Source: Gammaproteobacteria bacterium
GTDB taxonomy: Bacteria > Pseudomonadota > Gammaproteobacteria > Nevskiales > Nevskiaceae
Reading direction: 5' to 3'
DNA length: 64,000 nt
Assembly: GCA_028871525.1 (NCBI GenBank)
Contig: JAGWMX010000001.1
Coordinates: forward strand, 27,529 to 91,528
Shown here: piece after piece, positions 5,652-55,472 of the stretch
Layout of the letters: every line of letters starts with the position of its first letter
Numbering within the stretch: position 1 is the stretch's first letter
Notes under the pieces: model-generated
Seen by the model: the letters and a program-made list of their open reading frames with translations, nothing else
What the model was told of the DNA's origin: nothing
Database searches by the model: none
Made by a program: the position numbers and the translations under genes

Positions 5652-5751
5652 GGCGACGCGTAACCGACGCGCAGCGTCCCCGCCAAGACGCGCAGCGCCC
5701 GTGGCGGTCGCGTGACGCTGTCATGGCAATGATATGCGGGTGCCAGCTCAT

Positions 5752-5787
5752 CGAGGTTGCTTCGTCGCTACGCGCCTCGCAATGACG
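5752..5787 (+). repeat. R2 palindromic repeat, half element, overlapping the start of the SBF-like gene
   Basis: The sequence runs from CGAGGTTGCTTCGTCGC to CCTCGCAATGACG. It is one arm of the GTCATTGCGAGG-type repeat also seen at 24075-24196, 25673-25767 and 43283-43319. Its terminal CGCAATGACG contains the ATG at 5782 used by the downstream gene. The matching left arm is absent or decayed; the preceding bases only resemble it weakly. Confidence 0.8.
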
Positions 5788-6771
5788 TTTCTCCGATCGG
5801 TCTGCGTCTCGAGACCGGACCCACTGGTTCTGGGCATGCTCGCCGCGGTGGTGCTGGCCGTTCTGACGCCGCGCTGGGGTGCCAGCGGCGGGTCGCTGCA
5901 TCTGGCGCGGGTCACGCAGCTCGGCGTCGGCGCGGTATTCTTCCTCCACGGCGCCGGGCTGTCGATCGAGCGGTTGCGCAGCGGCGCCGGCAACTGGCGG
6001 CTGCACCTGTTCGTACAAAGTGCCACCTTCCTGGTGTTTCCGCTGGTCGGCCTGTCGATCGAGTATCTCGGTGCCGGCTTGCTGCCCAAGCCGCTGCGCG
6101 ACGGCCTGTTCTACCTGTGCGCGCTGAACTCGACAGTGGCCTCATCCATCGCCTTGACCGCAGTGGCCGGCGGCGACGTCGCCGCAGCGGTGTTCAACGC
6201 CACGCTGTCCAGCCTGATCGGCATGCTGGCAACCCCGTTATGGGTCGATTTCGGACTGCACGCCGCCGGTCGGGGCTTCGGTTTCGACCGGCAACTGCTC
6301 GGCATCGGCCGGCAACTGCTGCTGCCGTTCGTCGGCGGCCTGCTGACGCATCGATGGCTCGGCGCGACGGCCGCCCGCCATCGCCGCGCGGTCGGAGGCT
6401 TCGACCGCGCAGTGATCATACTGATCGTTTACGGTGCGTTCTGCGACGCGACGCAGGGCGGTCTGTGGCGCACCCACGCACTGGCGCTGCTGGCCCAGGC
6501 GACGGCGGCGATCAGCCTGCTGCTGGCGCTGGCGCTGGGCCTCACGACCTGGGCGGCGCGCCGCGTCGGCTTCCCGCTGCGCGTCGAAGTGGTGGCGGTA
6601 TTCTGCGGTTCCAAGAAAAGCCTGGCCGTGGGCGTGCCGATGGCGCGGCTGCTGTTTGCGCCCGCCCAGCTCGGGATGATGCTGCTGCCGCTGATGCTGT
6701 ACCACCAGCTGCAACTGCTGGTCTGCGCGCTGCTGGCGCAACGCTACGCCCGCCGTCTGCGCGACACCTGA
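5782..6771 (+). CDS. bile acid:sodium symporter-like (SBF-like/DUF4137-type) membrane carrier
   Basis: The 329-residue product is almost entirely hydrophobic, with about nine to ten helices. It shows the signature of the SBF-like CPA family: [32 protein letters not shown] and, near the end, [15 protein letters not shown]. Homologues are ion or organic-anion carriers of mostly unknown substrate. The ATG belongs to the R2 repeat, so the first residues (MTFLRS) are repeat-derived; the upstream in-frame extension to 5734 is also repeat sequence and probably not native. The 3' end overlaps the convergent uvrA by 28 bp. Confidence 0.8.
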
Positions 6772-9614
6772 ACCGCGGCGGTCTGTCCGACCAGCAGCCG
6801 ACGCAGGAAGCTTCCGGTGTATGAGCTGTCGACCGCGGCCACCTGCTCCGGCGTGCCGCCGGCCAGCACCCGGCCGCCGCCGGACCCGCCCTCGGGGCCC
6901 AGATCGACGATCCAGTCGGCGCGCTTGATCACCTCGAGATTGTGCTCGATCACCACCACCGTGTTGCCGGCATCGCGCAGCCGTTCCAGCACTCGCAGCA
7001 ACTGGGCCACGTCGTGGAAATGCAGTCCGGTGGTCGGTTCGTCGAGGATGTACAGGGTGCGGCCGGTGTCGCGGCGGCTCAATTCCCTGGCCAGTTTGAC
7101 GCGCTGCGCCTCGCCGCCGGACAGCGTGGTCGCGTTCTGGCCGAGCTTGACGTAGGACAGGCCGACGTCGAGCAGTGTCTCCAGCTTGCGGCGGATCGCC
7201 GGCACCGGCCGGAAGAACTCGGCGGCCTCTTCGATCGTCATCTCCAGCGCTTCGTCAATGGTCTTGCCCTTGTATCGGATCTCCAGCGTTTCGCGGTTGT
7301 AGCGGTGGCCGCGACAGGTGTCGCAGGTGACGTAGACGTCGGGCAAGAAATGCATCTCGACCTTGATCACGCCGTCGCCTTCGCAGGTCTCGCAGCGCCC
7401 GCCACGGACGTTGAACGAGAACCGCCCGGGGCCGTAACCACGTTCGCGCGCGGCCGGCACCTGAGCGAACAGCTCGCGGATCGGCGTGAATACGCCGGTA
7501 TAGGTCGCAGGATTGGAGCGCGGCGTGCGACCGATCGGCGACTGGTCGATGTCGATCACCTTGTCCAGGTGTTGCAGACCTTCGATCGCACCGACCGGCG
7601 CCCAGCGCGTGCCGGCGCCATTCAATTCGCGCGCGGCGTAGCCGAGCAACGTGTCGTTGACCAGCGTCGACTTGCCGGAGCCGGAGACACCGGTCACGCA
7701 GGTGAACAACCCGATCGGGATCGACACGTCGATGCTTTGCAGGTTGTTGCCGCGCGCACCGCGGATGACGATCTGCTTCTCCGCATCAGGCGAGTGGCGC
7801 TGTTCCGGCACCGCGATGCGCTCGCGACCCGCCAGGTACGCGCCGGTCAGCGACCGTTCGGCACGCTCGATATCCGCCGGCGCGCCCTGTGCGACGACTT
7901 CGCCGCCATGCACTCCGGCGCCGGGGCCGATGTCGACGACGTGATCGGCGGCGCGGATCGCCTCCTCGTCATGCTCGACGACGATGACGGTGTTCCCCAG
8001 GTCGCGCAGATGCTTCAGCGTGTCCAACAACCGGGCGTTGTCGCGCTGGTGCAGGCCGATCGATGGCTCGTCCAGCACGTACATCACGCCGACCAGACCG
8101 GCGCCGATCTGGCTGGCCAGGCGGATGCGCTGCGCCTCGCCGCCGGACAGCGTCTCGGCGCTGCGCGCCAGCGTCAGGTAGTCGAGACCGACGCTGTCGA
8201 GAAACGACAGCCGGGCGACGATCTCCTTGACGATCTTGTCGGCAATTTCGCCACGGTGACCGGGCAAGTGCAGTGCGCGGAACAGCGCGTGCGCCTCGCG
8301 CACCGAAAGCCGGGTGATCTGCGGCAGGCTGCGATCGGCGACGAACACGTGCCGCGCGGCGCGGTTGAGCCGTTCGCCGCCGCAGTCCGGACACGGCTTG
8401 TCCGACAGATACCTCGCCAGTTCCTCGCGCACGGCGGCGGATTCGGTCTCCCTGTAGCGCCGCTCGAGGTTCGGCACCACGCCCTCGAAGCGATGCGTGC
8501 GCGTGACGATGCGGCCACGGTCGTCGGGGTAATCGAAGCGGATTCTGTCCTCGCCGCTGCCGTAAAGCACCACCCGGCGCGCCGCCTCCGGCAGTTTCAC
8601 AAAAGGCGTGTGAGGATCGAAGCCGTAGTACCGCGCCAGCGACGACAACAGTGCCCAGTAGTAGGGGTTGCGACGATCCCACCCGCGAATCGCGCCGTCG
8701 GCCAGACTGACTTCGGGATGGATCACCACCCGCTCGGCGTCGAAGGCCTGCAGCTGGCCAAGTCCGTCGCAGGTCGGACAGGCGCCATGCGGCGCATTGA
8801 ACGAAAACAGCCGCGGCTCCAGTTCCTCCAACGCATAACCACAACGCGGGCAGGCCATGCGCGCGGAGAAAGTCAGCGCCGGCACACCGCCGTCCTCCGG
8901 ATAGGGCACCACCAGCGCCAGCCCGTCGGCGAGCTTCAGCGCAGTCTCGAAGGATTCGGCCAGCCGCTGCTTGAGATCGGCGCGAACGCGGAAGCGGTCG
9001 ACGACGATCTCGACATCGTGCTTGAGTTTACGGTTCAAGGCCGGAACTTCGTCGAGCTCGAACACGCGGCCGTCGACGCGCGCGCGCAGAAAGCCCCGGG
9101 TGCGCATCTGCTCGAACACCTCCGCGTGTTCGCCCTTGCGGCCGCGCACCACCGGCGCCAGCAGCAGCCAGGCCGATTCGGGCGCCAGCGCCAGCACCTG
9201 ATCGACCATCTGCGACACGCTCTGCGCGACCAGTTCGACACCGTGGTCCGGGCAGCGTGCAGTGCCGACGCGGGCATACAGCAAACGCAGATAATCGTGA
9301 ATCTCGGTGACGGTGCCGACCGTCGAGCGGGGGTTGTGGCTGGTGGATTTCTGCTCGATCGAAATCGCCGGCGACAATCCTTCGATCGAGTCGACGTCCG
9401 GTTTCTGCATCATGCTCAGGAACTGCCGCGCGTAGGCCGACAACGACTCGACGTAGCGCCGCTGCCCTTCGGCGTACAGCGTGTCGAAAGCCAGGCTCGA
9501 TTTGCCAGAGCCGGAAAGGCCGGTGATCACGATCAATCGCTGGCGCGGCAGATTCAGCCCGATGTTTTTCAGGTTGTGCGTGCGCGCGCCACGGACACGA
9601 ATCTGCTCCATCAC
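6744..9614 (-). CDS. uvrA: UvrABC excinuclease subunit A
   Basis: The 956-residue product has the standard UvrA length. It is the damage-sensing ATPase of nucleotide excision repair, acting as a dimer that loads UvrB. Both ABC modules are visible: the first Walker [21 protein letters not shown], a zinc finger CPRCGY...CPTCDG, two LSGGEAQR signatures, the second Walker [16 protein letters not shown] and the zinc-binding CETCEGDG...CDTCRGH. The start is an ATGATG pair at 9614/9611. No clear LexA box (CTG-N10-CAG) is seen upstream. The MFS gene is divergent. Confidence 0.98.
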
Positions 9615-9744
9615 CGGAACCTGAAGGGATTAACCTATTACTATAGGGCACTGCCGTACACCTGAGTCCTGCTGGCGGAACCCGGCCGGCTGTGCGTGGT
9701 CGCAGGTGCGACCACCCGGCGCCACACAGAACCGATCTCGACAC

Positions 9745-10956
9745 ATGAAGATGAACCGCTCCGAATGGCGCACCACCGGTGCCCTGTCTTCGATCTATGC
9801 CTTGCGCATGTTCGGCATGTTCATGGTGCTGCCGGTGCTGTCGCTGTACGCCAGGCACCTGACGCCGGGCGTCAGCGGCCTGGAAATCGGTCTTGCGGTC
9901 GGCATCTACGGGCTGCTGCAGGCGCTGCTGCAGGTGCCGCTCGGCGTGGTTTCGGACCGGATCGGCCGCAAGCCGGTCATCACCATCGGCTTGATCGTGT
10001 TTGCCGCCGGCAGCGTTTTGGCCGGCTGGGCATCGAGCATCGCCTGGCTGATCGCCGGACGCGCGCTGCAAGGCGCCGGCGCGATCAGTTCCGCGGCTTC
10101 GGCGCTGTTGGCCGACGCCACGCGGCCGCAGGTGCGCACGCAGGCGATGACCATTCTCGGTGCCGGCATGGGCGCCTCGTTCCTGCTGGCGCTGATCGCC
10201 GGCCCGCCGCTATCCGGCGTCATCGGCGTCGATGGGATCTTCGTTCTGACCGGCGCGCTGGCAGCTCTGGCTCTGCCGGTGCTGTGGCGTGGGGTGCCGA
10301 ATCCGCCGCGGCTACCGGCAACGCCCGGTGCCTTCCGGCGCGCTGTTTCCGACCCGCAACTGCTGCGGCTCGACGCCGGCATCTTTCTGCTGCACACGAT
10401 GATGACCGCGCTGTTCGTCGCCGCGCCGTTCGTGCTGCAGCAGACGCTGGGACTGCCGGGCCATCGGCAATGGGAAGTCTACCTGCCGGTGCTGGTCGCC
10501 TCGATCGTGCCGGTTTTCGCGCTGATCCGCCGCATCGAAGCCGCCGGCCGGATCAGGGCTGCGTTCATCGCCGCAGTCCTGTTGCTGGGACTGGCGCTGG
10601 CCGGTGCCGGCCTCCTGCACGGCTCCGGCGACGGGTTCACCATTGCACTGTTCATGTTCTTCGTCGCTTTCAATTACCTTGAAGGCACGCTGCCGTCGCT
10701 GATCTCGCGCCGCGCGCCGGCTTCCGGCAAAGGTGCGGCGCTGGGCGTCTATTCGACCTGCCAGTTCCTCGGCGGCTTTGCCGGCGGCGTGCTCGGCGGC
10801 ACGCTGCTAACGGATTTTGGCGCCGCCGGCGTGTTCTACGCCGCCGGCGCGCTGGCGTTGCCCTGGCTTTTGATCGCCGCCGGTCTGAAGCCGCCACCGC
10901 TGATGCCGCATCCGGCCAACGACGAAACCTCTGCCGAGGCGGCGCGCGGGGTATGA
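9745..10956 (+). CDS. YajR-like MFS transporter
   Basis: The 403-residue protein has twelve hydrophobic segments and the MFS motif A GVVSDRIGRK after helix 2. The start RMFGMFMVLPVLSLYA is typical of the YajR group, often found between uvrA and ssb in gammaproteobacteria. It ends soon after helix 12, so it lacks the C-terminal YAM domain of E. coli YajR. ATG at 9745 is chosen over an upstream GTG-class start because similarity begins at MNRSEWR. The substrate is unknown. Confidence 0.85.
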   Translation: MKMNRSEWRTTGALSSIYALRMFGMFMVLPVLSLYARHLTPGVSGLEIGLAVGIYGLLQALLQVPLGVVSDRIGRKPVITIGLIVFAAGSVLAGWASSIAWLIAGRALQGAGAISSAASALLADATRPQVRTQAMTILGAGMGASFLLALIAGPPLSGVIGVDGIFVLTGALAALALPVLWRGVPNPPRLPATPGAFRRAVSDPQLLRLDAGIFLLHTMMTALFVAAPFVLQQTLGLPGHRQWEVYLPVLVASIVPVFALIRRIEAAGRIRAAFIAAVLLLGLALAGAGLLHGSGDGFTIALFMFFVAFNYLEGTLPSLISRRAPASGKGAALGVYSTCQFLGGFAGGVLGGTLLTDFGAAGVFYAAGALALPWLLIAAGLKPPPLMPHPANDETSAEAARGV

Positions 10957-10975
10957 TGCGGCGGCTTACCCCGGT

Positions 10976-11524
10976 ATGCAGACGATGACGCTCGGTATTG
11001 CGGTGCTGACGGTTTCGGATACCCGGACCGAGGCCGACGACAAGTCCGGCAACCTGCTGGTCGAAAAACTGACGGCCGCCGGTCGTCGGCTGGCGGCGCG
11101 CGCATGCGTCTCCGACGACAAGTATGCGATCCGCGCCCGCCTCTCCGGCTGGCTGGTGGATCCGTCGGTGGATGCGATCATCACCACCGGCGGTACCGGC
11201 CTGACCGGCCGCGATCTGCTGCCGGAAGCGGTGATCCCGCTGCTGGACCGCGTCACCGAGGGCTTCGGCGAACTGTTCCGTTTCCTGTCCTGGCAGGACA
11301 TCGGCACCTCAGCGCTACAATCCCGCGCTTTTGCCGGCACCGCCAACGGCCGTCTGGTGTTCTGCCTGCCCGGCTCGCGCGGCGCCTGTGAACTGGCCTG
11401 GGACAGGATCATCGGTCCGCAGCTCGATCCGGGCACCCGGCCGTGCAACCTGGTCGAACTGCTGCCGCGACTGCGCGAGCCGTCCGACCGGCCGGCGCCG
11501 AAGCGCCCCTCGCGGCGCGATTAA
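10976..11524 (+). CDS. moaB: molybdopterin adenylyltransferase, MoaB type
   Basis: The 182-residue protein belongs to the MoaB/Mog fold: GIAVLTVSDTRT at the start, the nucleotide-binding TTGGTGLTGRD and the late LPGSRGACELAW. The family adenylates molybdopterin before molybdate insertion. A TATGAT -10-like element lies at 10952-10957; the start could be ATG 10976 or ATG 10985, the second agreeing better with the family N terminus. It stands at the edge of the molybdenum/formate module, convergent with a TonB receptor. Confidence 0.92.
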   Translation: MQTMTLGIAVLTVSDTRTEADDKSGNLLVEKLTAAGRRLAARACVSDDKYAIRARLSGWLVDPSVDAIITTGGTGLTGRDLLPEAVIPLLDRVTEGFGELFRFLSWQDIGTSALQSRAFAGTANGRLVFCLPGSRGACELAWDRIIGPQLDPGTRPCNLVELLPRLREPSDRPAPKRPSRRD

Positions 11525-11657
11525 CCGCTGAACGTCTCTGCGCTTGCCGCTCCGGACGCGACGCGGCGGCTCCGATCAGGTTCCTGCCCGGCCATCCCTG
11601 ACCGGTGGCTCGTACGCCGCGTGAAGACCCATCGGACCCGCGCCAGCAGCGGCCCGC

Positions 11658-14045: not shown

Positions 14046-14148
14046 CGCAACTCCTCCCATGCAGCATCGATCTGCCGTGCGTGCGCGGCGAGGGTGCGCA
14101 CCGCCTGCAGGCGGCAAACCGGTCAAATCGGTCGAGGCCACCGACTCT

Positions 14149-14348
14149 ATTGATCCGGCACCATGATGGTTGAACAACATTCTGCCCCAGCCGATAGCGC
14201 CTGCAGTCGATGACGTCCCGATGTTGCCGGATCAGCAGCAAAAACCATGCTCCGGGTTATTGAAGCGGCCATCGGACTGTGCGACTCACATACCACGCTG
14301 GCGGCAAACACTGCGCGGTGTGCAATCATTTGCTGGCCGCTTCAATAA
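14149..14348 (-). repeat. R1 element, copy A (MITE-like, about 200 bp)
   Basis: The left end TATTGATCCGGC and the right end GCCGCTTCAATA form an imperfect terminal inverted repeat (10 of 12 positions). Inside are two hairpin modules: the GATCCGGCA/TGCCGGATC arms and the TTATTGAAGCGGCC/GGCCGCTTCAATAA arms (14257-14270 and 14335-14348). A 60-codon frame on the minus strand (14329-14147) spans the whole element and resembles the one in copy D. It lies about 100 bp upstream of the TonB receptor start. No transposase is present, as expected of a non-autonomous element. Confidence 0.85.
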
Positions 14349-14610
14349 GACGTATCAAATCAATCGCCGGCGGCCCCGTCAATGCCGCAGCGGCATGGAT
14401 GTCAAAACCGCGTTATTGAACTGCGATGCACGGCCCCAGTTGAGAGCTTGCAGGGTGTAAACCCGCGGTATTGCGTTCAAACATTCGATCATCGCCGCAG
14501 TAGCCGGGCCTGGGTCTCGACTGACGCGGCTCGACCGGATTGCCGCATGCGCTGCCGTCGGCCGCATCGGGCGCGGTGAGCGGCACTACCCCGCCGGGTT
14601 ACGCCTGGCT
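14349..14610. other. gap between R1 copy A and fdsD
   Basis: No gene is supported in these 262 bases. The stretch at 14415-14500 shares scattered words with R1 (TTATTGAA, GCAGGGT, TTCAAACATT) and may be a decayed copy, but this cannot be settled by eye. No T-tailed hairpin was seen after fdsD. Confidence 0.4.
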
Positions 14611-14841
14611 TCAAGCCACCTTGCGCTCGTCGTCGGCCAGCCGCTGCACCGCCAGCCGCGCCAGTTCGCTCAAACCCGCCCCACCCGAGCGCAGGTGGGC
14701 GATGATCTGCGTCCGCATGCGCGGATCCCAGAATTTACGCAGATGTCCGGCGACGCCAGCCACTGCCGCGTCGCGGTCGGATTCGGCCGCAAAGTAGTCG
14801 CAGATGTCGTTTGCCATCCCCACCAGATGTTCGATGTTCAT
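14611..14841 (-). CDS. fdsD: formate dehydrogenase delta subunit
   Basis: The 76-residue protein matches FdsD: MNIEHLVGMANDICDYFAAE, then HLRKFWDPRMRTQI and a short C-terminal helix. It is the small accessory subunit of soluble NAD-dependent formate dehydrogenases. ATG at 14841 has a GGAGGG site 3-4 nt upstream. It is the last gene of the fds unit but is separated from fdhD by the R1 copy B insertion. Confidence 0.92.
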   Translation of the reverse strand: MNIEHLVGMANDICDYFAAESDRDAAVAGVAGHLRKFWDPRMRTQIIAHLRSGGAGLSELARLAVQRLADDERKVA

Positions 14842-14852
14842 CGTCCCTCCAC

Positions 14853-15076
14853 TATTGATCCTACAATATGATGTTTGAACAACGCTCTGCTGCAGCCGAT
14901 GCCGCCTTTGGTCGATGGCGTTCCAACGCTGGCGTTCCAACGCTGCCGGATCAAGAACAAAAAATAGCAAAAACCATACTCTGTGTGATCGAGGCGGCCG
15001 TTGCGCTGTGCCATTCACACACCGCGCCGGCGACAAGCACTGCGCCGTGTTCAAACATTTTATGGCCGCTTCAATA
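14853..15076 (-). repeat. R1 element, copy B, inserted between fdhD and fdsD
   Basis: The ends are TATTGATCCTAC and TGGCCGCTTCAATAG. Internal modules match copies A, C and D, including ATTCACACACCGCGCCGG and CGTGTTCAAACATT. This copy is longer because of a tandem duplication of GGCGTTCCAACGCT near 14930. The minus-strand frame present in copies A and D is here interrupted after about 35 codons. The GGAGGG ribosome site of fdsD lies immediately outside the element. Confidence 0.85.
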
Positions 15077-15091
15077 GAAGCGTCGCTTGCC

Positions 15092-15940
15092 TCAGGCCAC
15101 CGCCGGCGCCGCGTCGCGCAGCCGCGCCGGCGCACTGTAGATCACGCAGCCGTCGCCGCGTGCGAAACCGACCAGCGTCATGCCGGCCTCGCCGGCCAAC
15201 CGCACCGCCAGTTCGGTCGGCGCCGAGATCGCCACCACCAATCCGGCGCCGAGACGCGCGGCTTTCTGCACGATCTCGTAGCTGGCGCGACTGGTCATCA
15301 CCAGGAACCCGGCCGGCGGCTGCCCGCGAACCAGCAATGCCCCGATCAGCTTGTCGAGCGCGTTGTGGCGGCCGACATCTTCGCGCAAAGCCAGGATCTC
15401 CCCGTCCGGCGCCGCCCACGCCGCTGCGTGCACCGCTCCGGTGCGGGCACCGATCAGCTGATGGCGACGCAGATCGCGCAGCGCGCGAGACAGTTCGGCG
15501 ACGCCGTAAGTTTTTCCGGCCGGCACCCGACGCAGCGGCCGGATCGCCTGCTCGATCACGCGGGCGCCACACAGGCCACAACCCGTGCGTCCCGCCAGCG
15601 AGCGCCCGCGCATGGCCAGCGCGGCGGCGCGCGGCGCCGGGATACGCAGCGAAAGCTGGAGACCCTGATCGAGCTGTGCCTGCTCACAGCCGGACAGCTC
15701 GTCCGGCGTGTCGATGATGTCCTCGGTCAGCGAGAAGCCCAGTGCGAAATCCTGCAGATCACACGGCGTAGCCATCATCACCGCGTGCGGCTCGCCGTTG
15801 TAGACCAGCGCCACCGGCGTCTCCAGCGCCACCCAGTCGCGCTCGCGCCGCACCGTGCCGGCGCCGATGCGCAGCACTGCGGATTCGGCGGCGCCGACGC
15901 AGCCGCCGCCGGCCGATCCGGGTTCAGCCGGCGCCGGCAT
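15092..15940 (-). CDS. fdhD: formate dehydrogenase accessory sulfurtransferase
   Basis: The 282-residue protein belongs to FdhD: LETPVALVYNGEPHAVMMAT and LGFSLTEDII at the start, the Cys pair TGCGLCG that carries sulfur from IscS, and ILALREDVGRHNALDKLIGA. It sulfurates the bis-MGD cofactor so formate dehydrogenase becomes active. The start overlaps the end of fdsA by 17 bp, indicating translational coupling. The N terminus (MPAPAEPGSAGGG) is low in complexity. Confidence 0.95.
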   Translation of the reverse strand: MPAPAEPGSAGGGCVGAAESAVLRIGAGTVRRERDWVALETPVALVYNGEPHAVMMATPCDLQDFALGFSLTEDIIDTPDELSGCEQAQLDQGLQLSLRIPAPRAAALAMRGRSLAGRTGCGLCGARVIEQAIRPLRRVPAGKTYGVAELSRALRDLRRHQLIGARTGAVHAAAWAAPDGEILALREDVGRHNALDKLIGALLVRGQPPAGFLVMTSRASYEIVQKAARLGAGLVVAISAPTELAVRLAGEAGMTLVGFARGDGCVIYSAPARLRDAAPAVA

Positions 15941-18812: not shown

Positions 18813-20386
18813 GACACTGCCCTGGCCGCGCGGCCTGCTGCCCGGCGCGGCGGCTTATCGAAATCCTCGGAAAAATGATCCAGCGCCGACAGCACGGGAA
18901 ACGGCGCCATGCCGCCGAGCGCGCACAGAGAACCGTCGAGCATGGTCCGGCACAGATCGCGCAGGAGCACGACGTTTTTCTCCCGCTCGATACCGGCGCG
19001 GATGCGGTCGATCACCTCGACACCGCGTACCGAACCGATGCGGCACGGCGTGCATTTGCCGCACGACTCGATGGCGCAGAATTCCATCGCGTAGCGCGCC
19101 TGCGCCGCCATGTCCACGCGGTCGTCGAACACCACCAGCCCGCCGTGGCCGATCATGCCGCCGATTTTGGCGAAAGCCTCGTAATCCAGCGCGGTGTCGA
19201 ATTGCGAAGGCGCGATATAGGCGCCCAGGGGTCCGCCGACCTGCACCGCGCGCACCGGCCGGCCGTTGGCGGTTCCACCGCCGTAGTCGTCGATCAATTC
19301 GCGCAACGTGATCCCGAAGGCTTTCTCCACCAGCCCTCCGTGCTTGACGTTGCCGGCGAGCTGGAATGTGCAGGTGCCGCGCGAACGCCCGGCGCCGTGG
19401 CCGGCGTAAAACGCCGCGCCGCGATCGAGAATGATCGGCACCGAGGCGAAGGTGATGACGTTGTTGATCACCGTCGGCTGGCCGAACAGGCCCTTGATCG
19501 CCGGCAGCGGCGGCTTGTAGCGAATCTGCCCGCGCTTGCCCTCGAGCGATTCGAGCATCGAGGTTTCCTCGCCGCAGATGTAGGCGCCGGCCGCCATGCG
19601 CAGATGCAGATGAAAGCTCTGACCGCTGCCGTGGATGTTCCCGCCCAGCCAGCCCTGACGGCTGGCTTGCGTAATTGCCGCCTCCAGGACACGCTGGGCG
19701 TGGGGGTACTCGATGCGCAGGTAGACGTAACCCTGCGTGGCGCCGACCGCCAGTCCGGCGATGGTCATGCCCTCGATCAAACAGTACGGGTCACCCTCGA
19801 TCAGCATGCGGTCGGCGAAGGTGCCGGAATCCCCCTCGTCGGCATTGCAGACCACGTATTTCTGCCCGGCCGGCGCATCAGCCGCGGTCTTCCATTTGAT
19901 GCCGGTCGGGAACGCCGCGCCGCCGCGGCCGCGCAGACCGGAATCCGCGACCGCCTGCACGACGTCGCCGGGGGCCATGCCCAACGCTTTTTCCAGGCCG
20001 CGGAAACCGCCGTGTGCGCGATAGTCGTCGATCGACAGCGGATCGGTGACGCCAACGCGGGCGAAAGTCAGCCGCTCCTGCTTCTTCAGATAAGGTATCT
20101 CCTCGACCGGCCCGAGTCGCAGACGGTGCCGGCCACCTGCGAGGAAGCCGGCGTCGAACAGCCTGGCGACATCCTTTCCCGCGACCGGGCCGTAGGCGAC
20201 GCGAGTGCCCTTGACGTCCACCTCGACCAGTGGCTCGATCCAGAACATCCCGCGCGAGCCGTTGCGGACCAGCCGGATCGACTCACCGCGGCGCCCGGCC
20301 TCGGCCGCGATCGCCGCGGCGACGTCTTCGGCCCCGAGCGACAGCGCGGTCGCGTCGCGCGGCACGTAGACGGTGGTCTCGCTCAT
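18809..20386 (-). CDS. fdsB: NAD-dependent formate dehydrogenase, beta subunit (NuoF-like)
   Basis: The 525-residue protein fuses a thioredoxin-like ferredoxin domain (1-110) to a NuoF-type diaphorase. NADH and FMN sites appear as SGLRGRGGAAFPTGIKW and VCNADEGDSGTFADR; the [4Fe-4S] site near the C terminus is ESCGKCTPCRIG with a later Cys in DLCRTMLDGSLCALG. It transfers electrons from FdsA to NAD+. The gene overlaps fdsG and fdsA by 4 nt each. Confidence 0.96.
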   Translation of the reverse strand: MSETTVYVPRDATALSLGAEDVAAAIAAEAGRRGESIRLVRNGSRGMFWIEPLVEVDVKGTRVAYGPVAGKDVARLFDAGFLAGGRHRLRLGPVEEIPYLKKQERLTFARVGVTDPLSIDDYRAHGGFRGLEKALGMAPGDVVQAVADSGLRGRGGAAFPTGIKWKTAADAPAGQKYVVCNADEGDSGTFADRMLIEGDPYCLIEGMTIAGLAVGATQGYVYLRIEYPHAQRVLEAAITQASRQGWLGGNIHGSGQSFHLHLRMAAGAYICGEETSMLESLEGKRGQIRYKPPLPAIKGLFGQPTVINNVITFASVPIILDRGAAFYAGHGAGRSRGTCTFQLAGNVKHGGLVEKAFGITLRELIDDYGGGTANGRPVRAVQVGGPLGAYIAPSQFDTALDYEAFAKIGGMIGHGGLVVFDDRVDMAAQARYAMEFCAIESCGKCTPCRIGSVRGVEVIDRIRAGIEREKNVVLLRDLCRTMLDGSLCALGGMAPFPVLSALDHFSEDFDKPPRRAAGRAARAVS

Positions 20387-20931
20387 GACGTGGACTCCTT
20401 CGCAGCCGCGCCGATCCCAAGCAATCGGTCGAAGCGTTTTGCCGTGACCCGGCTATGGAGTTCGCCGTCGATCATCAGCGACGGCCCGCAGGCGCAGTTA
20501 CCCAGACAATAAACCGGCTCCAGCGTATAGCGACCGTCGGCGGTAGTCTGGTGATAGTCGACGCCCAGACGTTTTTTGGCGTGGGTCTCGAGCGCCGCGC
20601 AGCCGTTGGCCTGGCAGGCCTCCGCACGGCACAGGTAGATCACGCGCTCGCCCGGCTTCTCGGTGCGGAAGAAGTGGTAGAAGCTGATCACACCGTGGAC
20701 CTCGGCGCGCGACAGATTGAGCCGGTTGGCGATCAGCCCCACCGATTCGGACGGGATGTAGCCCAGCGTCTGCTGCACACCGTGCAGCACCGGCAACAAT
20801 GCGCCCGGCAGGCGGCCGAGCCGTCCGCTGACGTCCAGCACCGCGTCACGGATCTCCGGCTTCAGGTCCGCACCAGGGTCATGCGGGGGTAAGGCCACCG
20901 GTGCCGCCAGGGTTCTGGGTTTGACTTTCAT
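20383..20931 (-). CDS. fdsG: NAD-dependent formate dehydrogenase, gamma subunit (NuoE-like)
   Basis: The 182-residue protein has the NuoE-type [2Fe-2S] thioredoxin fold. The four Cys ligands fall in LCRAEACQANG and YCLGNCACGPS, and the helical start contains LPVLHGVQQTLGYIPSES and VHGVISFYHFFR. It is the first intact gene of the fds unit; its ATG overlaps the stop of the upstream antiporter remnant by 4 nt, so it may be translated by coupling to that remnant. Confidence 0.95.
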   Translation of the reverse strand: MKVKPRTLAAPVALPPHDPGADLKPEIRDAVLDVSGRLGRLPGALLPVLHGVQQTLGYIPSESVGLIANRLNLSRAEVHGVISFYHFFRTEKPGERVIYLCRAEACQANGCAALETHAKKRLGVDYHQTTADGRYTLEPVYCLGNCACGPSLMIDGELHSRVTAKRFDRLLGIGAAAKESTS

Positions 20932-21398
20932 GCTGTCCTCCCGCGCGCTCGCAGCGCTAGAACGGCGCCGATACCGAAAACTCCGCGCGCAGCAGCGGCG
21001 GCCGCACTCGCCGGAATCCTGGATGGTTGACGCTGAAACCGCGGCTCGGCCTCAACCTCTTCTTCGTCCACGCCATGCGCCTCCTGAACCGCCCTGATCA
21101 GCAAGCCGCGGATCAGACTCACGAACAATAGACCGGCGAGGATGTACAGGGTTCGACCGCAAACCAGGTTGCGGGCGACGCCGTGCTCGAGCCGGAGCTG
21201 GCGCGGGTTGACGACCAGCCGGAGCATCGGCATCCGGAACACCGAAAATCCGTACGCCATGCCGATCGACCGGTGAATCGCCAGTACCGGCGGCAGTACC
21301 GGCCGGCGGTTGAACCGCGATCCGGCCGCCGTGCGCTCGCGCGACGGCCCGCCGCCTGCACCACTCTTTCCGACCACGTCCGCCATCGCGCTTGTCAT
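20928..21398 (-). pseudogene. remnant of an OFA-family oxalate/formate MFS antiporter with a large internal deletion
   Basis: The frame gives 156 residues from an ATG with a good GGAGGGG site. The first part (SRERTAAGSRFNRRPVLPPV then LAIHRSIGMAYGFSVF) matches from memory the N terminus and first helix of OFA antiporters. The following part (CGRTLYILAGLLFVSLIRGL, HGVDEEEVEAE) matches their last helix and tail. The roughly 400 residues with the other helices are missing, leaving one clear membrane segment. It is still in frame and coupled to fdsG by an ATGA overlap, so it may survive as a leader for fds translation. Transport is not possible as read. Confidence 0.7.
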
Positions 21399-21423
21399 CC
21401 GATCCCCTCCAGGATCAGCCGAA

Positions 21424-21484
21424 TATGTCTTTTCCAACATACACGGCGGTTATAGCGTAAGCGTCAATGCGGAGACTATAACCG
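21424..21484. promoter_or_regulatory. two dyads between the fds operon and its divergent regulator
   Basis: CGGTTATAG (21447-21455) and CTATAACCG (21476-21484) form a perfect 9 bp inverted repeat with a 20 bp spacer. TATGT (21424-21428) and ACATA (21437-21441) form a second, shorter dyad. The TATA-rich arms recall ModE-type operators, and the neighbouring regulator has a ModE-like helix-turn-helix. A role as operator is inferred from position and symmetry. Confidence 0.5.
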
Positions 21485-21542
21485 CGCCGGCGCCACCCAA
21501 ATATGTGCTAGAAAGCCGTTACAACCCGATAACGACCAGTCC

Positions 21543-22634
21543 GTGTTCAGAATTACCGTCAAACCGCAGTGGCATCTGGAAAGCCGAGACGGCGGGCAAC
21601 GGTTGTCGCGGCTGGTCGAATTGCTGGCGGCGACCGACGAACACGGCGCGCTGGCGCCAGCCTGCCGTGAGGTGGGTCTGTCGTATCGCTACGCCTGGGG
21701 CCTGCTGCAGGAAAGTGCGACCCTGTTCGGTGCGCCGCTGGTCAATATGGCGCGCGGCCGCGGCGCCGAGTTGACGCCCCTTGCTGAAAAACTGGTATGG
21801 GCCGACAAACGCATCGCCGCACGCCTGTCGCCATTGCTCGACAGCCTGGCTTCCGAATTGGAAGTCGAACTCGAACGCGCGGTGTCCGCAGCGCAGCCGA
21901 TTCTGCGGCTGCAGGCCAGCCACGGCTTCGCGGTCGAGACGCTGCGACAATGGTTCACCCGGCAACAGATTCCGCTGGACCTCAAATACCGCACCAGCTT
22001 CGAGGCGGTGGCCGCGTTGCATCAGCACAGTTGCGACATGGCCGGTTTTCCGGTGCCGGTCGGCGAATTCCAGGCGCCGGTGCTGCGCGCCTACCTGGCG
22101 TGGCTGGACGCCGGCAGCCAGCGTCTGATCCACCTGGCCAGTCGGCGTCAGGGTCTGATCGTGGCGCCGAAAAACCCCCTGGCGGTGCGCGCGCTGACCG
22201 ACCTGACCCGGCCCGGCGTGCGCTTCGTCAACCGTCAGCCCGGCTCCAGCACCCGGGCGCTGCTGGACCTGATGCTGCGGCATCAACGCATCGACGTCGC
22301 GCGCATCCAGGGTTACGACAGCGCCGAATTCACACACGCCGCAGTGGCCGCATACGTTGCCAGCGGCATGGCTGAGGTCGGACTCGGCGTGGAGACCGCC
22401 GCACAGCGTTTCAAACTGGGCTTCGTGCCGCTGTGCGTGGAACACTATTTTTTCGTCTGCCACACCGTCCTCCTGCGCCAGCCGGTGATGCGGCGGGTAC
22501 TGGCGGCGCTGCGCAGCGCCGAGTTTCACCGGGCGGTCAGCCATCTCGCCGGCTACGACCCCAGGCACTGCGGCGAAATCCGGTCGCTGCGCGCGGCTTT
22601 CCCCGAACACGCGGCGATGTTCCGCAAACGATGA
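21543..22634 (+). CDS. ModE/FdsR-like regulator with periplasmic-binding-protein-like sensor domain
   Basis: The 363-residue protein begins at GTG 21543. Residues 15-90 form a ModE-type winged helix (LSRLVELLAATDEHGALA, EVGLSYRYAWGLL). Residues 110-360 resemble the substrate-binding domain (PBP-like, PF12727 type) seen in molybdate-sensing regulators: LRLQASHGFAVETL, MAGFPVPVGEF, RPGVRFVNRQPGSSTRALLD. It is divergent from fdsGBA and overlaps mobA by 4 nt, so it probably controls the formate operon in response to molybdate, formate or cofactor state. The exact ligand is unknown. Confidence 0.85.
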   Translation: MFRITVKPQWHLESRDGGQRLSRLVELLAATDEHGALAPACREVGLSYRYAWGLLQESATLFGAPLVNMARGRGAELTPLAEKLVWADKRIAARLSPLLDSLASELEVELERAVSAAQPILRLQASHGFAVETLRQWFTRQQIPLDLKYRTSFEAVAALHQHSCDMAGFPVPVGEFQAPVLRAYLAWLDAGSQRLIHLASRRQGLIVAPKNPLAVRALTDLTRPGVRFVNRQPGSSTRALLDLMLRHQRIDVARIQGYDSAEFTHAAVAAYVASGMAEVGLGVETAAQRFKLGFVPLCVEHYFFVCHTVLLRQPVMRRVLAALRSAEFHRAVSHLAGYDPRHCGEIRSLRAAFPEHAAMFRKR

Positions 22635-23227
22635 ATCCGATCGACGGCCTGATTCTGGCCGGTGGCCGCAGCCGGCGGTTCGGCGGCGCCGATAAGGGGC
22701 TGGCCCGGTGGTGCGGCCGGCCGCTGGTGGCGCATGTCGCGGCGGCGCTGGCGCCGCAGGTGGCGGAATTCCGGATTTGCGCCAACCGCAACGCCGAACG
22801 CTACACCGCCTTCGGCCCGGTCATCGACGACGGCCGCTGGCGTGATTGCGGGCCGCTGGCCGGATTGCGTGCCGGGCTCGCCGGCTGCCGTCGGCCGTGG
22901 CTGGCCTACGTGCCGGTGGATGCCGTGCGCCTGCCGCCGGATCTGGTGGCGCGGCTACTGGCGGCGGCATTGGACACCGGCCGCGACGCCGCGATGACTT
23001 TCGACGGCGGCTCACCGGTGCCGACCTGCGGCTTGCTGCGCACCTCGCTGCTGCCGCAGGTCGAGACGGCGTTGACCGGGTCGCGGCGGGCACTGCGCGA
23101 TTTCCTGAATCCGCTGCAACCGGCTGCCGTCTGCTGGCCGCCCGGCGCCTGGGTGTGGAGCGTCAACACCCCTGCCGAACTGGCGGCGCTGGCCCCGGAT
23201 GCGGCCGCGGGCGACTGCGACCCCTAA
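22631..23227 (+). CDS. mobA: molybdenum cofactor guanylyltransferase
   Basis: The 198-residue protein has the MobA nucleotidyltransferase start IDGLILAGGRSRRFGGADKG, which binds GTP, then GPLAGLRAGLAGC and YVPVDAVRLP; the usual acidic PCD is here PVD. It attaches GMP to Mo-molybdopterin to make the MGD cofactor used by FdsA. The ATG at 22631 overlaps the stop of the upstream regulator (ATGA), so both are one transcript. The C terminus VNTPAELAAL is typical. Confidence 0.93.
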   Translation: MNPIDGLILAGGRSRRFGGADKGLARWCGRPLVAHVAAALAPQVAEFRICANRNAERYTAFGPVIDDGRWRDCGPLAGLRAGLAGCRRPWLAYVPVDAVRLPPDLVARLLAAALDTGRDAAMTFDGGSPVPTCGLLRTSLLPQVETALTGSRRALRDFLNPLQPAAVCWPPGAWVWSVNTPAELAALAPDAAAGDCDP

Positions 23228-23291
23228 ACCGCGCTACCATTCCTCACTGTGCGCTTAACGCCGCGCGCGCTTCTCAAGGAGACAGCTCGTC

Positions 23292-23771
23292 ATGGCTCGC
23301 GGAGTCAACAAGGTCATTCTGATCGGCAATCTCGGCAAGGATCCGGAGCTGCGTTCCATGCCCTCCGGCGGTGCGGTGGTGAACCTGACGCTGGCCACCT
23401 CCGACACCTGGAAAGACAAGACCACCGGCGAGGCCAAGGAGCGCACCGAGTGGCATACCATCGTGTTCTTCAACAAACTGGCGGAAATCGCCGGACAGTA
23501 TTTGAAGAAAGGATCGAAAATCTACGTCGAGGGCAGCCTGCGCACGCGCAAGTGGCAGGACAAGGACGGCCACGATCGCTACACCACCGAGATCGTCGTC
23601 AACGACATGCAGATGCTGGACAGCCGCGGCGGCCTGCCTGCCGGACAGGCAAGCGGAGCGGGCGACGATGCGGCACCGCGCGCCGCGCCGCGCGCCGCGG
23701 TGGCGGCACGCGCGCAGGCCGCCGACGCACCGCCGGACACCGGCTTCGAAGACGACGACATCCCATTCTAG
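23292..23771 (+). CDS. ssb: single-stranded DNA-binding protein
   Basis: The 159-residue protein has an N-terminal OB fold ([40 protein letters not shown]), an Ala/Arg-rich linker and the conserved acidic tail FEDDDIPF that recruits partner proteins. AAGGAG lies about 9 nt before the ATG. In many relatives ssb directly follows the YajR-like MFS gene next to uvrA; here the formate module separates them. Confidence 0.97.
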
Positions 23772-23786
23772 AGCTGGGACTCGCAC

Positions 23787-24059
23787 CTTAAGAGCTTATC
23801 CTTGAATAAATCGCGTCAGCGCCGGAGGTCATTTTCGCGCACTGCAACGAGCGAAGAGCGGGCGATGGTTGTTCCATCGGCGCGATGAGCAAGGCCGCAG
23901 TGCGCGAAAATGGCCCCGGCTCTGGCGGGTTGCGCCCCAAATTGCGCCATGCTGCGTTACTCGTCCTTGCTTAGAATCACTAAGCGACGATCCTCGCGCC
24001 TTGCCTGGCGCAATTTGGGGCAGCAACGCTGGCGTGATTTATCAAGGATAAGCTCTAAG
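23787..24059. repeat. R3 element: 273 bp MITE-like repeat built of nested hairpins
   Basis: The ends are inverted repeats: AGAGCTTATCCTTGAATAAA on the left (23791 onward) and the complement GATTTATCAAGGATAAGCTC on the right, with weaker matching further in. Between them are two long hairpins. One has 15 bp arms at 23831-23845 and 23897-23911 and an inner CGATGG/CCATCG stem. The other has 16 bp arms at 23934-23949 and 24006-24021 and an inner GCTTAG/CTAAGC stem. No coding frame is supported. It directly follows ssb. Confidence 0.85.
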
Positions 24060-24074
24060 TGATCCGCACAACAA

Positions 24075-24196
24075 CGTCATTGCGAGGAGCGGAGCGACGA
24101 AGCAACAACGTCATTGCGAGGAGGCGTAGCCGACGAAGCAACCTCGAGCCAACTTTGACGAGGTTGCCACGGGCGCTACGCACCCTCGCAATGACG
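24075..24196 (+). repeat. R2 palindromic repeat, three units, overlapping the dacB start
   Basis: Unit 1 (24075-24105) and unit 2 (24109-24146) both begin CGTCATTGCGAGG and contain GACGAAGCAA. Unit 3 (24159-24196) is inverted: CGAGGTTGCC...CCTCGCAATGACG. Units 2 and 3 could form a large hairpin. The TTG at 24164 and the ATG at 24191, the two likely starts of the carboxypeptidase gene, both lie inside unit 3. Confidence 0.9.
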
Positions 24197-25654
24197 TTGC
24201 TGGCGGCGACGGGCGCTCACGCCGCCGGCTTCGAGCAACTCGCCGGACTTCGCGCCCAGGGCGCCGAAGTTTCGGCGCTGGCGGTGGATCTGGACAACGG
24301 CCGCACGCTGGCCAGCCTTTCGCCGCAGACCCGGCTGACGCCGGCTTCCCTGACCAAGCTGGTCACCGCCGCTGCGGCGCTGGATCACTGGGCCGCCGAT
24401 CAGACCTTTCCCACCCGGCTGCTGACCAGCGGCCGCATCGTCGGCGACCGGCTCGACGGCGATCTGGTTTTGCAAGGCGACGGCAACGCTACCCTCGACG
24501 ACCAGGGTTTATGGACGCTGGCCGCTCAGCTCGCCGGTACCGGCGTGCGTCAGATTCACGGCCGTCTGCTGGTCGTGCCGGCGCCGTTCGGACCGGTGCC
24601 ATGCGAAACCGAGGATCGCTGCAAGGCCACCACGCGCAGCGACAGCGCCTACGATGCGCCGCTGTCGTCGATCGGCGTCGACTTCGGCGCCTGGTGCCTG
24701 GACGTACGGCCAACCGCGCCAGGCCAGCCGGCAGCGGTGCGTGGCTGCGCGGTGACGAAGCTGCCGCTGCCGGTGGTGGGCGAGATCCGTACCGTTGCCC
24801 CGCGTGCGCGGCAAACCTTCTGGCTGGAGCGGGTAACCGCTGCCGACGGCGATACGATCCGCGTCGGCGGCGATATCCCTGGCGGCAGGCCGGTGCGGAT
24901 GTTTCGCGCGATGTCCGATCCCGCCCGTGGCGCCGCCCTGCTGCTGCAGGAAATCCTGCGCGAAACCGGGATCACGCTCAGCGGCGGCGTGGCGGTTGCC
25001 CCGCCGTTGGTCGCGAACGCCACGCGGACGCTGGCGTCGTTCGACGGCATGCCGCTGCGCGAACAGCTCGGGCGCATGCTGCGTTATTCGAATAATTACA
25101 TCGCCGACGTGCTGACGCTGGACCTGGCGGCGGCCACGCTGCATCCGGCACCGGCGCAACTGGCGCAGGCCGGCCAGGCGCTGTCGTCGTTCGTCGCCTA
25201 CACTCGGCGCGGCGGGCGCGATCCGCCGCTGCCGTCACTGTATTCCGGCAGCGGGCTGACGCCGGAGAGTCAGATGTCGGCCGACGATCTGGTCGATCTG
25301 CTGCGCCACGAATATCTGGATACCCGCGATTTTCCGGTGTTCTACGGCAGTCTGGTGGTGCCGCGGCAGGCGCCGTTCGCGTTCCTGCGTCGCGGCAGCC
25401 GCGCCTGGCTGGATCGGGTGGCGCTGAAGACCGGCACCATGGACGACCCGCGTTCGGTGTTCGGCATCGCCGGTTATCTGCGCAAGCAAGACAGCGGCTG
25501 GGCGGCGTTCGCCATCCTCGTCAACGGCAGTGACCGCCGCAAGCACATCCCCCTGTACCGGGCGCTGGCCGCCGCCCGCGCCGACGTCGAATCGCTGCTG
25601 GCCGGCCGCGAGCCGGCCACCGCCGGCTTGTCGCGCTGCACAACCGCGTGCTAG
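24164..25654 (+). CDS. dacB: D-alanyl-D-alanine carboxypeptidase/endopeptidase, PBP4 family
   Basis: The protein is about 490 residues, near the usual PBP4 size. All penicillin-binding motifs are present: SXXK in PASLTKLVTA, SXN in RYSNNYIADVL and KTG in ALKTGTMDDPR. The family trims and cleaves peptidoglycan cross-links in the periplasm. The start is uncertain. ATG 24191 leaves too short a signal peptide (MTLLAATGAHAAG), whereas TTG 24164 adds PRALRTLA and gives a proper basic n-region. Both starts lie in the R2 repeat, so the repeat appears to provide part of the signal peptide. Confidence 0.9.
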   Translation: MPRALRTLAMTLLAATGAHAAGFEQLAGLRAQGAEVSALAVDLDNGRTLASLSPQTRLTPASLTKLVTAAAALDHWAADQTFPTRLLTSGRIVGDRLDGDLVLQGDGNATLDDQGLWTLAAQLAGTGVRQIHGRLLVVPAPFGPVPCETEDRCKATTRSDSAYDAPLSSIGVDFGAWCLDVRPTAPGQPAAVRGCAVTKLPLPVVGEIRTVAPRARQTFWLERVTAADGDTIRVGGDIPGGRPVRMFRAMSDPARGAALLLQEILRETGITLSGGVAVAPPLVANATRTLASFDGMPLREQLGRMLRYSNNYIADVLTLDLAAATLHPAPAQLAQAGQALSSFVAYTRRGGRDPPLPSLYSGSGLTPESQMSADDLVDLLRHEYLDTRDFPVFYGSLVVPRQAPFAFLRRGSRAWLDRVALKTGTMDDPRSVFGIAGYLRKQDSGWAAFAILVNGSDRRKHIPLYRALAAARADVESLLAGREPATAGLSRCTTAC

Positions 25655-26028
25655 AAAAGGCGATGCGCCGGTCGTCATTGCAAGGAGGGCGAAGCCCGAC
25701 GAAGCAAGCCCGACCCGGCGGCATCTTCACGAGGTTGCTTCGGCTCCCCTGGAGCCTCGCAACGACGCTACGTGTCGCCTTTGCCGCCGGGCTGCTGCTG
25801 ACGCAGTGGCTGGCGGTGGTGCACGCCACCCAGCATGAGCTGTCCGCGCAGCCGGATCGGCCGATCTGCCAGCTCTGCGCCTTCGCCCATGCCGGCGGCC
25901 CGGCGGCCAGCGCGCCGGCGCTGCCGCTGCCGGTTTCGTTCCATCGCGCGTCGGCCACGCCCGTGGTCGCCGCGCCGCACCTGGATCGCCGTTACACCCT
26001 GCCCCCGAGCCGCGCGCCGCCGCGCTGA
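25648..26028 (+). CDS. small DUF2946-like membrane-anchored protein with CxxC motif
   Basis: The 126-residue frame has one strong hydrophobic segment (LRVAFAAGLLLTQWLAVVHA), then HELSAQPDRPICQLCAFAHA, a CxxC/His motif like those in small DUF2946-type proteins linked to copper or heavy metals, then a Pro/Ala-rich tail. GTG 25648 overlaps the dacB stop; ATG 25663 and TTG 25735 are alternatives, the last giving the neatest signal segment. Codons 9-40 are R2 repeat sequence. It precedes a TonB receptor on the same strand, which suggests a joint role in metal handling; this is inference. Confidence 0.6.
   Translation: MLEKAMRRSSLQGGRSPTKQARPGGIFTRLLRLPWSLATTLRVAFAAGLLLTQWLAVVHATQHELSAQPDRPICQLCAFAHAGGPAASAPALPLPVSFHRASATPVVAAPHLDRRYTLPPSRAPPR
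25673..25767 (+). repeat. R2 palindromic repeat, paired inverted units inside the DUF2946-like gene
   Basis: The left unit CGTCATTGCAAGGAGG...GACGAAGCAAG (from 25673) is inverted relative to the right unit CGAGGTTGCTTCGG...CCTCGCAACGACG (25730-25767). The two could pair into a long hairpin. The final ATGACG of other copies is ACGACG here, so this copy does not give an ATG. Confidence 0.85.
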
Positions 26029-35518: not shown

Positions 35519-35718
35519 GTTATTGAAGCGACCAGCAAATGTTTGAACACCGTGCAGGGTTTGCCGCCAGCGCGGTATGCGCATCGCACAGTCCGATGGC
35601 CGCTTCAATAACAAGGCGTGGTTTTTGCCATTGATCCGGCAGCATCGGCACGTCATCGACCGCAGGCGCTATCGGCTGGAGCGTAAGCGTCGCTCAACCA
35701 TCATGTTGCCGGATCAAT
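35519..35718 (+). repeat. R1 element, copy C, between DUF2461 gene and rmuC
   Basis: This copy lies in the opposite orientation to A, B and D: it starts GTTATTGAAGCG and ends GCCGGATCAAT. The internal words ATGTTTGAACACCG, GATGGCCGCTTCAATA and CATCATGTTGCCGG match the others. The long frame of copies A and D is present for 31 codons and then stops. Its end contains the TCA that, on the minus strand, is the rmuC stop codon. Confidence 0.85.
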
Positions 35719-43274: not shown

Positions 43275-43282
43275 CGCCAGAG

Positions 43283-43319
43283 GATTGCCGCGGACCGCTG
43301 CGCAGCCCTCGCAATGACG
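43283..43319 (+). repeat. R2 palindromic repeat, half element, after the FAD oxidase gene
   Basis: The sequence GATTGCCGCGGACCGC...CCCTCGCAATGACG is one arm of the GTCATTGCGAGG repeat. It runs directly into the 36 bp palindrome that begins at 43316. No gene starts at its ATG on this strand. Confidence 0.7.
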
Positions 43320-55170: not shown

Positions 55171-55233
55171 GCCGCCCGCGCCTCGCACCGCTTTGCCATC
55201 CATGCGGATGCGCGTATCATCGCCAGCCTGACA

Positions 55234-55435
55234 CTATTGATCCGGCCACATGGTGTTTGAACCATGCTCTGCTCGAGCCGATACCGACTGCGACCGATTA
55301 GGTTTCCAGGTTGCCGGATCAATGGTAAAAACCGTGCTCCGTGTGATTGCAGCGGCCATTTCGCTGTACGTTTCACACACTGCGCTGGCGACAGAGACTG
55401 CACCGTGTTCAAGCATTTGATGGCCGCTTCAATAG
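55234..55435 (-). repeat. R1 element, copy D, upstream of fis
   Basis: The ends are TATTGATCCGGCC and GGCCGCTTCAATAG. Internal hairpin arms TTGCCGGATCAA and TTGATCCGGCC are near perfect. A 60-codon frame on the minus strand (55416-55234) again spans the element and resembles that of copy A (..HGAVSVASAVCE.. against ..HRAVFAASVVCE..). It ends 37 bp before the fis ATG, so it occupies the fis upstream region. The 55171-55233 stretch after prmA holds no recognised feature. Confidence 0.85.
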
Positions 55436-55472
55436 GCTGATTCGACTCAATACCAGGGCCTCGATATCAAGT

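Follow-up and report, generated by a model that had tools for sequence, protein, structure and literature searches.

In a 64,000-nucleotide stretch of a Nevskiaceae genome (Gammaproteobacteria; contig JAGWMX010000001.1, positions 27,529 to 91,528, hereafter the window), arms of a short palindromic repeat, R2, meet the beginnings of three genes, encoding an SBF-like carrier, the D-Ala-D-Ala carboxypeptidase DacB and a DUF2946-like protein. A sequence-only reading had proposed that R2 acts there as a portable start codon or signal-peptide module. We find that R2 arms overlap eleven predicted genes of this genome in frame, five at the N-terminus, four internally and two at the C-terminus, and that arm ends are not favoured at gene starts. 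An R2 arm at a gene start is probably a tolerated insertion, or abuts a start that the gene already had, and not the donor of a start codon.

The R2 element and its distribution

The genome around the window comprises 2.71 Mb in 146 contigs and is 92% complete. Nevskiaceae, Nevskia, Solimonas, Stenotrophobium and Steroidobacteraceae are among the leading named hits in protein searches, so that the host is probably Nevskiales-like. Arms were located with a covariance model, R1, trained on 53 of 62 arm-like stretches (including the three arms of the sequence-only reading, at 5752-5787, 24159-24196 and 25730-25767) and used in this genome at a cut-off of E <=0.01. It returned 81 matches, of which a partial one on contig C30 was left unmapped; the 80 mapped arms form 49 elements. 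Seven of 84 near-matches had been removed by eye from an earlier 12-mer list, and all later counts come from the covariance model. In the window the 12-mer alone (<=2 mismatches) is not above chance, with 13 found against 12.0 expected; whole arms are.

An arm measures 30-41 nt. Aligned from the head (n=53), it reads CGTCATTGCGAGG, then a variable inner hairpin, then GCAACC(T/C)CG, and the consensus folds into an outer stem of 4 bp (TTGC/GCAA) and a variable inner stem. One outer pair has three double changes and two inner pairs 14 and 22. The start is CGTC in 47 of the 53 aligned arms and one base away from it in six, most of them having been found by a pattern that contains this tag (<=1 mismatch). 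After the stem, the tail is CCTCG in 16/53 and CCCCG in 12/53, and a CCA ending is absent except for a single TCCCA. Plain pairs with the CGTC tags outward make up 21 of the 49 elements. Read outward, an arm gives LAMT in frame 0, RND in frame 2 and usually a terminal TGA in frame 1. At five loci (L045:3096-3137, L049:3153-3179, L054:130-156, L055:3049-3075 and L059:3138-3164) one or two extra copies of the 12-base head follow the arm head in 15-base steps (CTCGCAATGACGTTC and variants), so that frame 0 is kept.

Gene calls come from a codon-usage script that takes the best-scoring start; starts were inspected by hand for the genes discussed here. On these calls, 25 elements lie between unidirectional genes, 11 between convergent and 6 between divergent ones, 4 inside a gene and 3 at contig ends. 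The 73 outermost heads face a gene 3' end in 36 cases and a 5' end in 27, the others lying in a gene (8) or at a contig edge (2). The excess of arm ends at gene starts expected of a start-codon module is absent: heads within 10 bp of a gene number 7/36 facing a gene end and 6/27 facing a start (7/27 if the SBF gene starts at 5782), and within 30 bp the counts are 21/36 and 9/27.

As to what moves R2, the Y1 transposase PF01797, the only family searched, has no match in this genome at its 92% completeness and is present in 28 of 41 genomes searched; a REP-associated tyrosine transposase (RAYT) was rejected as the mover on this ground. Rfam at the gathering score gave no match in the window. No consistent target-site duplication was found. 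The idea that the CGTC tag is a target site kept on insertion (the Lhr orthologue at L236, genome G014, has AACGTC at the insertion point) was dropped because four junctions give discordant numbers of remaining in-frame residues; counted by hand these are 2, 2, 0 and 1 mod 3, so that no target-site rule emerges.

Arms at the beginnings of genes

Besides the three genes of the window, an N-terminal in-frame arm is found in the genes for PilP (L066) and an alpha/beta hydrolase (L044). The relevant window features, with R1 E-values from cmsearch, are the following.

5675..5712, plus strand: left arm, degenerate, of the element that precedes the SBF carrier (E 0.034, marginal)
5752..5787, minus strand: R2 arm, its tag GACG overlapping the ATGACG start of the SBF carrier (E 9.8e-16 and sequence)
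5782..6771, plus strand: SBF_like transporter gene with predicted start ATG 5782 (Pfam PF13593, E 8.1e-88; homologue starts agree)
24059..25654, plus strand: open reading frame (ORF) of the dacB-type D-Ala-D-Ala carboxypeptidase (PF02113, TIGR00666; site energies)
24059, 24080, 24155, 24164, 24191 and 24197, plus strand: candidate dacB starts, GTG 24059, also TTG 24080, 24155 and 24164, ATG 24191 and TTG 24197 (site energies)
24075..24107, plus strand: R2 arm in frame in the dacB ORF (E 5.7e-9)
24109..24146, plus strand: R2 arm in frame in the dacB ORF (E 2.1e-17)
24159..24196, minus strand: R2 arm read RLPRALRTLAMT directly before LLAATGAHA of dacB (E 8e-17)
25663..26028, plus strand: DUF2946-like ORF with predicted native start ATG 25663 (ORF; orthologue N-termini)
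25673..25712, plus strand: R2 arm that opens the in-frame pair in the DUF2946-like leader (E 2.3e-15)
25730..25767, minus strand: R2 arm, second half of that pair, read RLLRLPWSLATT (E 1.7e-15)
43280..43319, minus strand: R2 arm between converging genes, non-coding (E 1.6e-15; context)

The arms and frames of the sequence-only reading are confirmed: CTCGCAATGACG stands at 5776-5787 and 24185-24196 and CTCGCAACGACG at 25756-25767, R1 agrees, and the frame crosses into all three genes as L-A-(M/T)-T, with the ORFs open across the arms. Two other statements are not confirmed. The arm end was said to coincide with the beginning of the gene; in two of the genes, dacB and the DUF2946-like one, the ORF already runs through the arm. 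The repeat was also said to supply the only good ATG. The SBF gene has a further in-frame ATG 5734 and GTG 5740 upstream of 5782, both probably inside the R2 element given its marginal left arm. In dacB, GTG 24059 is also in frame and is preceded, at 9 nt, by an AAGGA-type site (-4.7 kcal/mol).

We infer start usage at these genes from ribosome-binding site energies, computed for 18 candidate starts, and from homologues. For PilP, a GTG at L066:3036 that overlaps the preceding gene's stop has the strongest ribosome-binding site of all 18 (-10.3 kcal/mol). The leader reads VRRARWWPGCAA, then about 12 repeat codons to LALAMT, then LLLLSGC, giving 30 residues before the lipobox cysteine against a median of 20 (interquartile range, IQR, 18-21) in 119 homologues. 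The arm lay outside the R1 training set and yet scores E 1.3e-8. From ATG 25663 the DUF2946-like protein (a label taken from the sequence-only reading, as the protein has no Pfam or NCBIfam match) reads MRRS, then the R2 pair in frame, then LRVAFAAGLLLTQWLAVVH. Its same-genus orthologue reads RRTLLNWLFALGFAVGQSSAIVH, with RRTLL at the insertion place, where 14 of the 19 relatives' loci align; joined without the repeat, the leader MRR-LRVAFAAG resembles those of orthologues such as MKRRPLLLCVAF. In both genes an upstream native start thus appears to be retained. From GTG 24059, DacB reads VIRTT, three R2 arms in frame, then LLAATGAHA, and the most hydrophobic stretch of the DacB and PilP leaders is partly made of repeat-coded residues. 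Three of the eleven in-frame genes (PilP, DUF2946-like and dacB) carry R2 in predicted export signals.

Just 5' of dacB, at 23791-24056, lies a second palindrome resembling a mobile element. It is bounded by 15-bp terminal inverted repeats (AGAGCTTATCCTTGA) that match perfectly, and holds two 19-bp hairpins that are 95% complementary. Its right end provides the AAGGA site before GTG 24059.

In the SBF and hydrolase genes the last two arm codons, ATG ACG or ATG ACC, suffice as coding. The SBF ATG 5782 aligns with MTRLRS of homologue P0123 (64% identical), which reads MTRLRSLARWRPDPLLLGM. The hydrolase begins ATGACCTCCTCCCGC and its same-genus orthologue ATGACTTCTACCCGC; the two ATGs align at the DNA level (12/15 bases), and R1 finds no arm in the orthologue's locus. 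The ATGAC end of the arm would here coincide with an ATG-ACN start that was probably already present.

These comparisons bear on the proposal that an arm replaces the N-terminus of a gene as a portable start codon or signal-peptide module. Intact-head arms do give an ATG in frame 0 with hydrophobic residues before or after it, the native DacB leader looks shortened and the database call for PilP (160 aa) sits at the repeat's ATG. Against this stand the likely native starts upstream of the repeat in the DUF2946-like gene and PilP, the explanation of the SBF and hydrolase ATGs by homologues, and the lack of an excess of arm ends at gene starts. We judge start-codon donation wrong for PilP and the DUF2946-like gene and unlikely for SBF and the hydrolase, and consider the proposal as a whole very improbable. 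What survives of the N-terminal module is in-frame reading, into more genes than had been noted, and a share in the hydrophobic stretch of the DacB and PilP leaders.

The arms might instead be untranslated, with genes starting downstream and the frame kept open by high G+C content and a stop-poor repeat. The database calls for this genome start downstream, at 5836 for SBF (311 aa) and 24197 for dacB (485 aa), and ribosome sites are weak or missing for starts within or at the repeat, except for a -5.0 match before TTG 25735 that is not of the usual kind. In three species, most NH2-terminal repetitive extragenic palindromes were deemed probably non-coding (Di Nocera, De Gregorio and Rocco 2013, PMC3733652). 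A start at 5836 would, however, cut 6 residues into the SBF_like domain, whereas the median start of 119 homologues is 9 residues further upstream; a start at 24197 would leave MLAATGAHA as the sole DacB leader; and the strong-site GTG of PilP lies upstream of the repeat. Moreover, whole pairs lie inside the genes for Lhr, a kinase and a membrane protein, whose full-length products must be translated through them. We think this explanation decidedly unlikely.

Internal and C-terminal arms

Internal arms occur in PriA (L031), the Lhr helicase (L061), a hybrid histidine kinase (L051) and a membrane protein with no match in Pfam (L060); C-terminal ones in a prmB-like methyltransferase (L250) and a DUF885 protein (L042). 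The alignment of Lhr orthologues runs to query residue ~236 and resumes at ~299, with two residues between in genome G008, and R2 was not found at the DNA level in eleven orthologue loci. The best relative of the L060 protein matches residues 16-224 and 295-715, having 10 residues where L060 has 70, and four relatives show no repeat at the DNA level. In the kinase, the insert sits between the HATPase (to 798) and receiver (from 846) domains. At L250:3013-3055, the arm gives the prmB-like gene its last codons and TGA, and a chorismate synthase gene starts two bases beyond the arm, its ATG following a few bases after that TGA. The names prmB, pilO, hldE and TonB receptor are those we take to apply in this genome, as is aroC, for which there is also a Pfam match.

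At L227 (G016) and L234 (G005) an unrelated palindromic repeat occupies the Lhr linker, L227 reading LPSPSGRRAGDEG...LTPALAPGERE. The Lhr linker is a permissive site taken by different repeat families.

Reading frame and protein context

The outward frames of the 62 arm-like stretches differ in character. Frame 0 has no stop and a mean hydropathy of +0.96 over the last eight codons; frame 2 has a mean of -1.94 and is interrupted by stops in 4; in frame 1 a stop occurs in 49. The five N-terminal genes are all in frame 0, the three internal pairs have their outward arm in frame 2, and frame 1 is that of the prmB-like gene. We envision that elements insert at many places and that frame-breaking ones are lost. 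Since the frames differ in their properties, the surviving insertions would differ by protein context: signal peptides would keep arms in the hydrophobic, stop-free frame 0 (PilP, DUF2946-like, DacB), linkers and loops would keep pairs whose outward arm is in the polar frame 2 (Lhr, the hybrid kinase, the membrane protein), and the prmB-like gene would end at the TGA of frame 1. We tentatively propose, as a reading that may well not hold, that R2 is a mobile repeat tolerated in coding sequence, one outward frame passing as a signal-peptide core, another as a polar linker and the third ending the protein.

Frame 0 in 5/5 N-terminal cases against 0/3 internal-pair outward arms gives a one-sided Fisher value of 0.018, from few cases; against 1/5 arms near genes with their own downstream start it gives 0.024 (by hand), or 0.008 against 0/4 when the fifth arm (L059) is left out. 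Signal peptides alone against internal pairs, 3 versus 3, give 0.05. All these values are uncorrected for multiple looks, and the comparisons were picked after seeing the data. The shared frame noted by the sequence-only reading extends to all five N-terminal cases. Chance could have produced five random stop-free fusions that share a frame unlinked to protein context: with two usable frames, five alike have a two-sided probability of ~0.06 (by hand), the counts are small and the comparisons post hoc. The opposite frame in all three internal pairs and the sharp hydropathy gap between frames speak against chance, which we regard as an unlikely explanation.

Several points weigh against tolerated insertion sorted by frame. 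The few cases behind the Fisher values, and the 0.05 for signal peptides alone, have been given, as have the discordant junction remainders. Frame 0 is not confined to leaders, as the DUF885 C-terminal tail is in frame 0 and the frame-0 arm of L059 lies 30 bp before that gene's own likely start, so that the rule is not strict. The PriA arm adds no clear net length relative to the solved PriA 4nl4, and it may therefore be a replacement. ATG 25663 of the DUF2946-like gene is without a well-spaced ribosome site, and the SBF ATG 5782 is without any; a Met-Thr start occurs in 6/119 SBF homologues, three of them among the five nearest. DacB minus the repeat has 15 residues ahead of its anchor; the median in 109 homologues is 32 (IQR 24-39). 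With so short a joined leader, DacB may have lost part of its native one, and translation could begin within the repeat. Finally, signal peptides were assigned from visual inspection, hydropathy and homologues, and the relatives compared are distant (~50-70% protein identity).

Relatives and plasmids

The relatives' set holds 157 loci around the dacB, SBF, PilP, hydrolase, DUF2946-like, Lhr and L060 genes. At E <=0.01, R1 finds nothing in it beyond two marginal matches (E 0.007, 16 bits). An exact 13-mer of the repeat has 34 copies in the genome of the window; of 60 relatives, 54 have none, five have one and G042 has five. Because 13-mers are few and strong arms absent in relatives, the family is, within this sample, private to the genome of the window, and presumably a late arrival. 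The sole exact 13-mer of genome G023 (G023:C18:96786-96798, L210) lies ~60 bp from the 3' end of a DUF2946-like homologue and was rejected as an R2 arm on full reading of the site. G042 has five stretches with 11 arms, none inside a called gene, and is therefore uninformative on the frame rule.

Sixteen plasmid records covering >=80% of the arm, from Halomonas, Methylosinus, Methylocystis, Novosphingobium, Legionella, cyanobacteria and one Burkholderia, list no gene at the match, nor do the six records of another plasmid search. Further plasmid matches (E 0.04 to 6), many of them in listed genes, were judged chance-like.

A separate dispersed family of ~220 bp repeats, 73-90% alike, occurs in the window at 14143-14364, 14850-15077, 35520-35721 (minus strand) and 55230-55451. 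Its copies adjoin or cross the 5' ends of the ORF at 14180 (TonB-receptor-like by eye) and of a small called gene at 14841.

Relation to known repeats

Three kinds of known repeat resemble R2. The CGTC-tagged repetitive extragenic palindromes (REPs) of PMC3733652 have in-gene sites, including NH2 ends, and no dedicated transposase. Like them, R2 has CGTC at one end of a palindromic unit, forms dimers, enters some genes in frame and lies mostly between unidirectional or convergent genes, in a genome (92% complete) without a PF01797 match. Their stem, by contrast, is 8-9 bp long and begins with AT, with a loop of 4-5 nt, whereas R2 has its 4-bp outer and variable inner stem; and their unpaired tail is CCA, that of R2 mostly CCTCG or CCCCG. 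Their dimers are mostly head-to-head in the terms of PMC3733652; 21 of 49 R2 elements are tags-outward pairs. The Nevskiales-like host of R2 also differs from theirs. Classical REP/RAYT systems, as treated in the same paper, share with R2 short palindromes, often in opposite-facing pairs, but have a GTAG tag and a Y1 transposase, whereas R2 has CGTC and no Y1_Tnp match in the genome.

Rickettsia palindromic elements (RPEs) are the third kind. RPE-4, RPE-6 and RPE-7 carry an ATGAC motif, and different repeats occur near one site in orthologues (PMC3767692; RPE fusions are reviewed in PMC10969869). R2 is like them in entering genes in frame (Lhr and L060 compared with relatives), in its ATGAC motif and in the presence of different repeats near one site; the host differs, and the likeness described here is one of motif and habit.

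In-frame insertion of REPs and RPEs is thus already published (PMC3733652, PMC3767692), and what is new here, relative to the accessible text of these papers, is the signal-peptide cases and the frame-by-context pattern. The main text of PMC3733652 is without the words signal peptide, ATG and start. Among the titles and abstract openings listed, we found no description of repeats in signal peptides or at start codons beyond what PMC3733652 says on NH2 termini.

Implications

PMC3733652 set aside most N-terminal REPs as probable mis-called starts. The homologue starts and the retained upstream start described here argue that some N-terminal repeats are translated and belong to export signals. 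Should the frame-by-context rule hold elsewhere, the frame of a repeat would be a readable trace of selection on protein insertions, and gene calls beginning downstream of repeats, such as those for SBF and dacB here, would be recognised as truncating real N-termini. And if the reading of the three frames is true, such repeats would reshape export signals and linkers genome-wide without a transposase of their own, the frame at each site recording the insertions that the protein tolerated.

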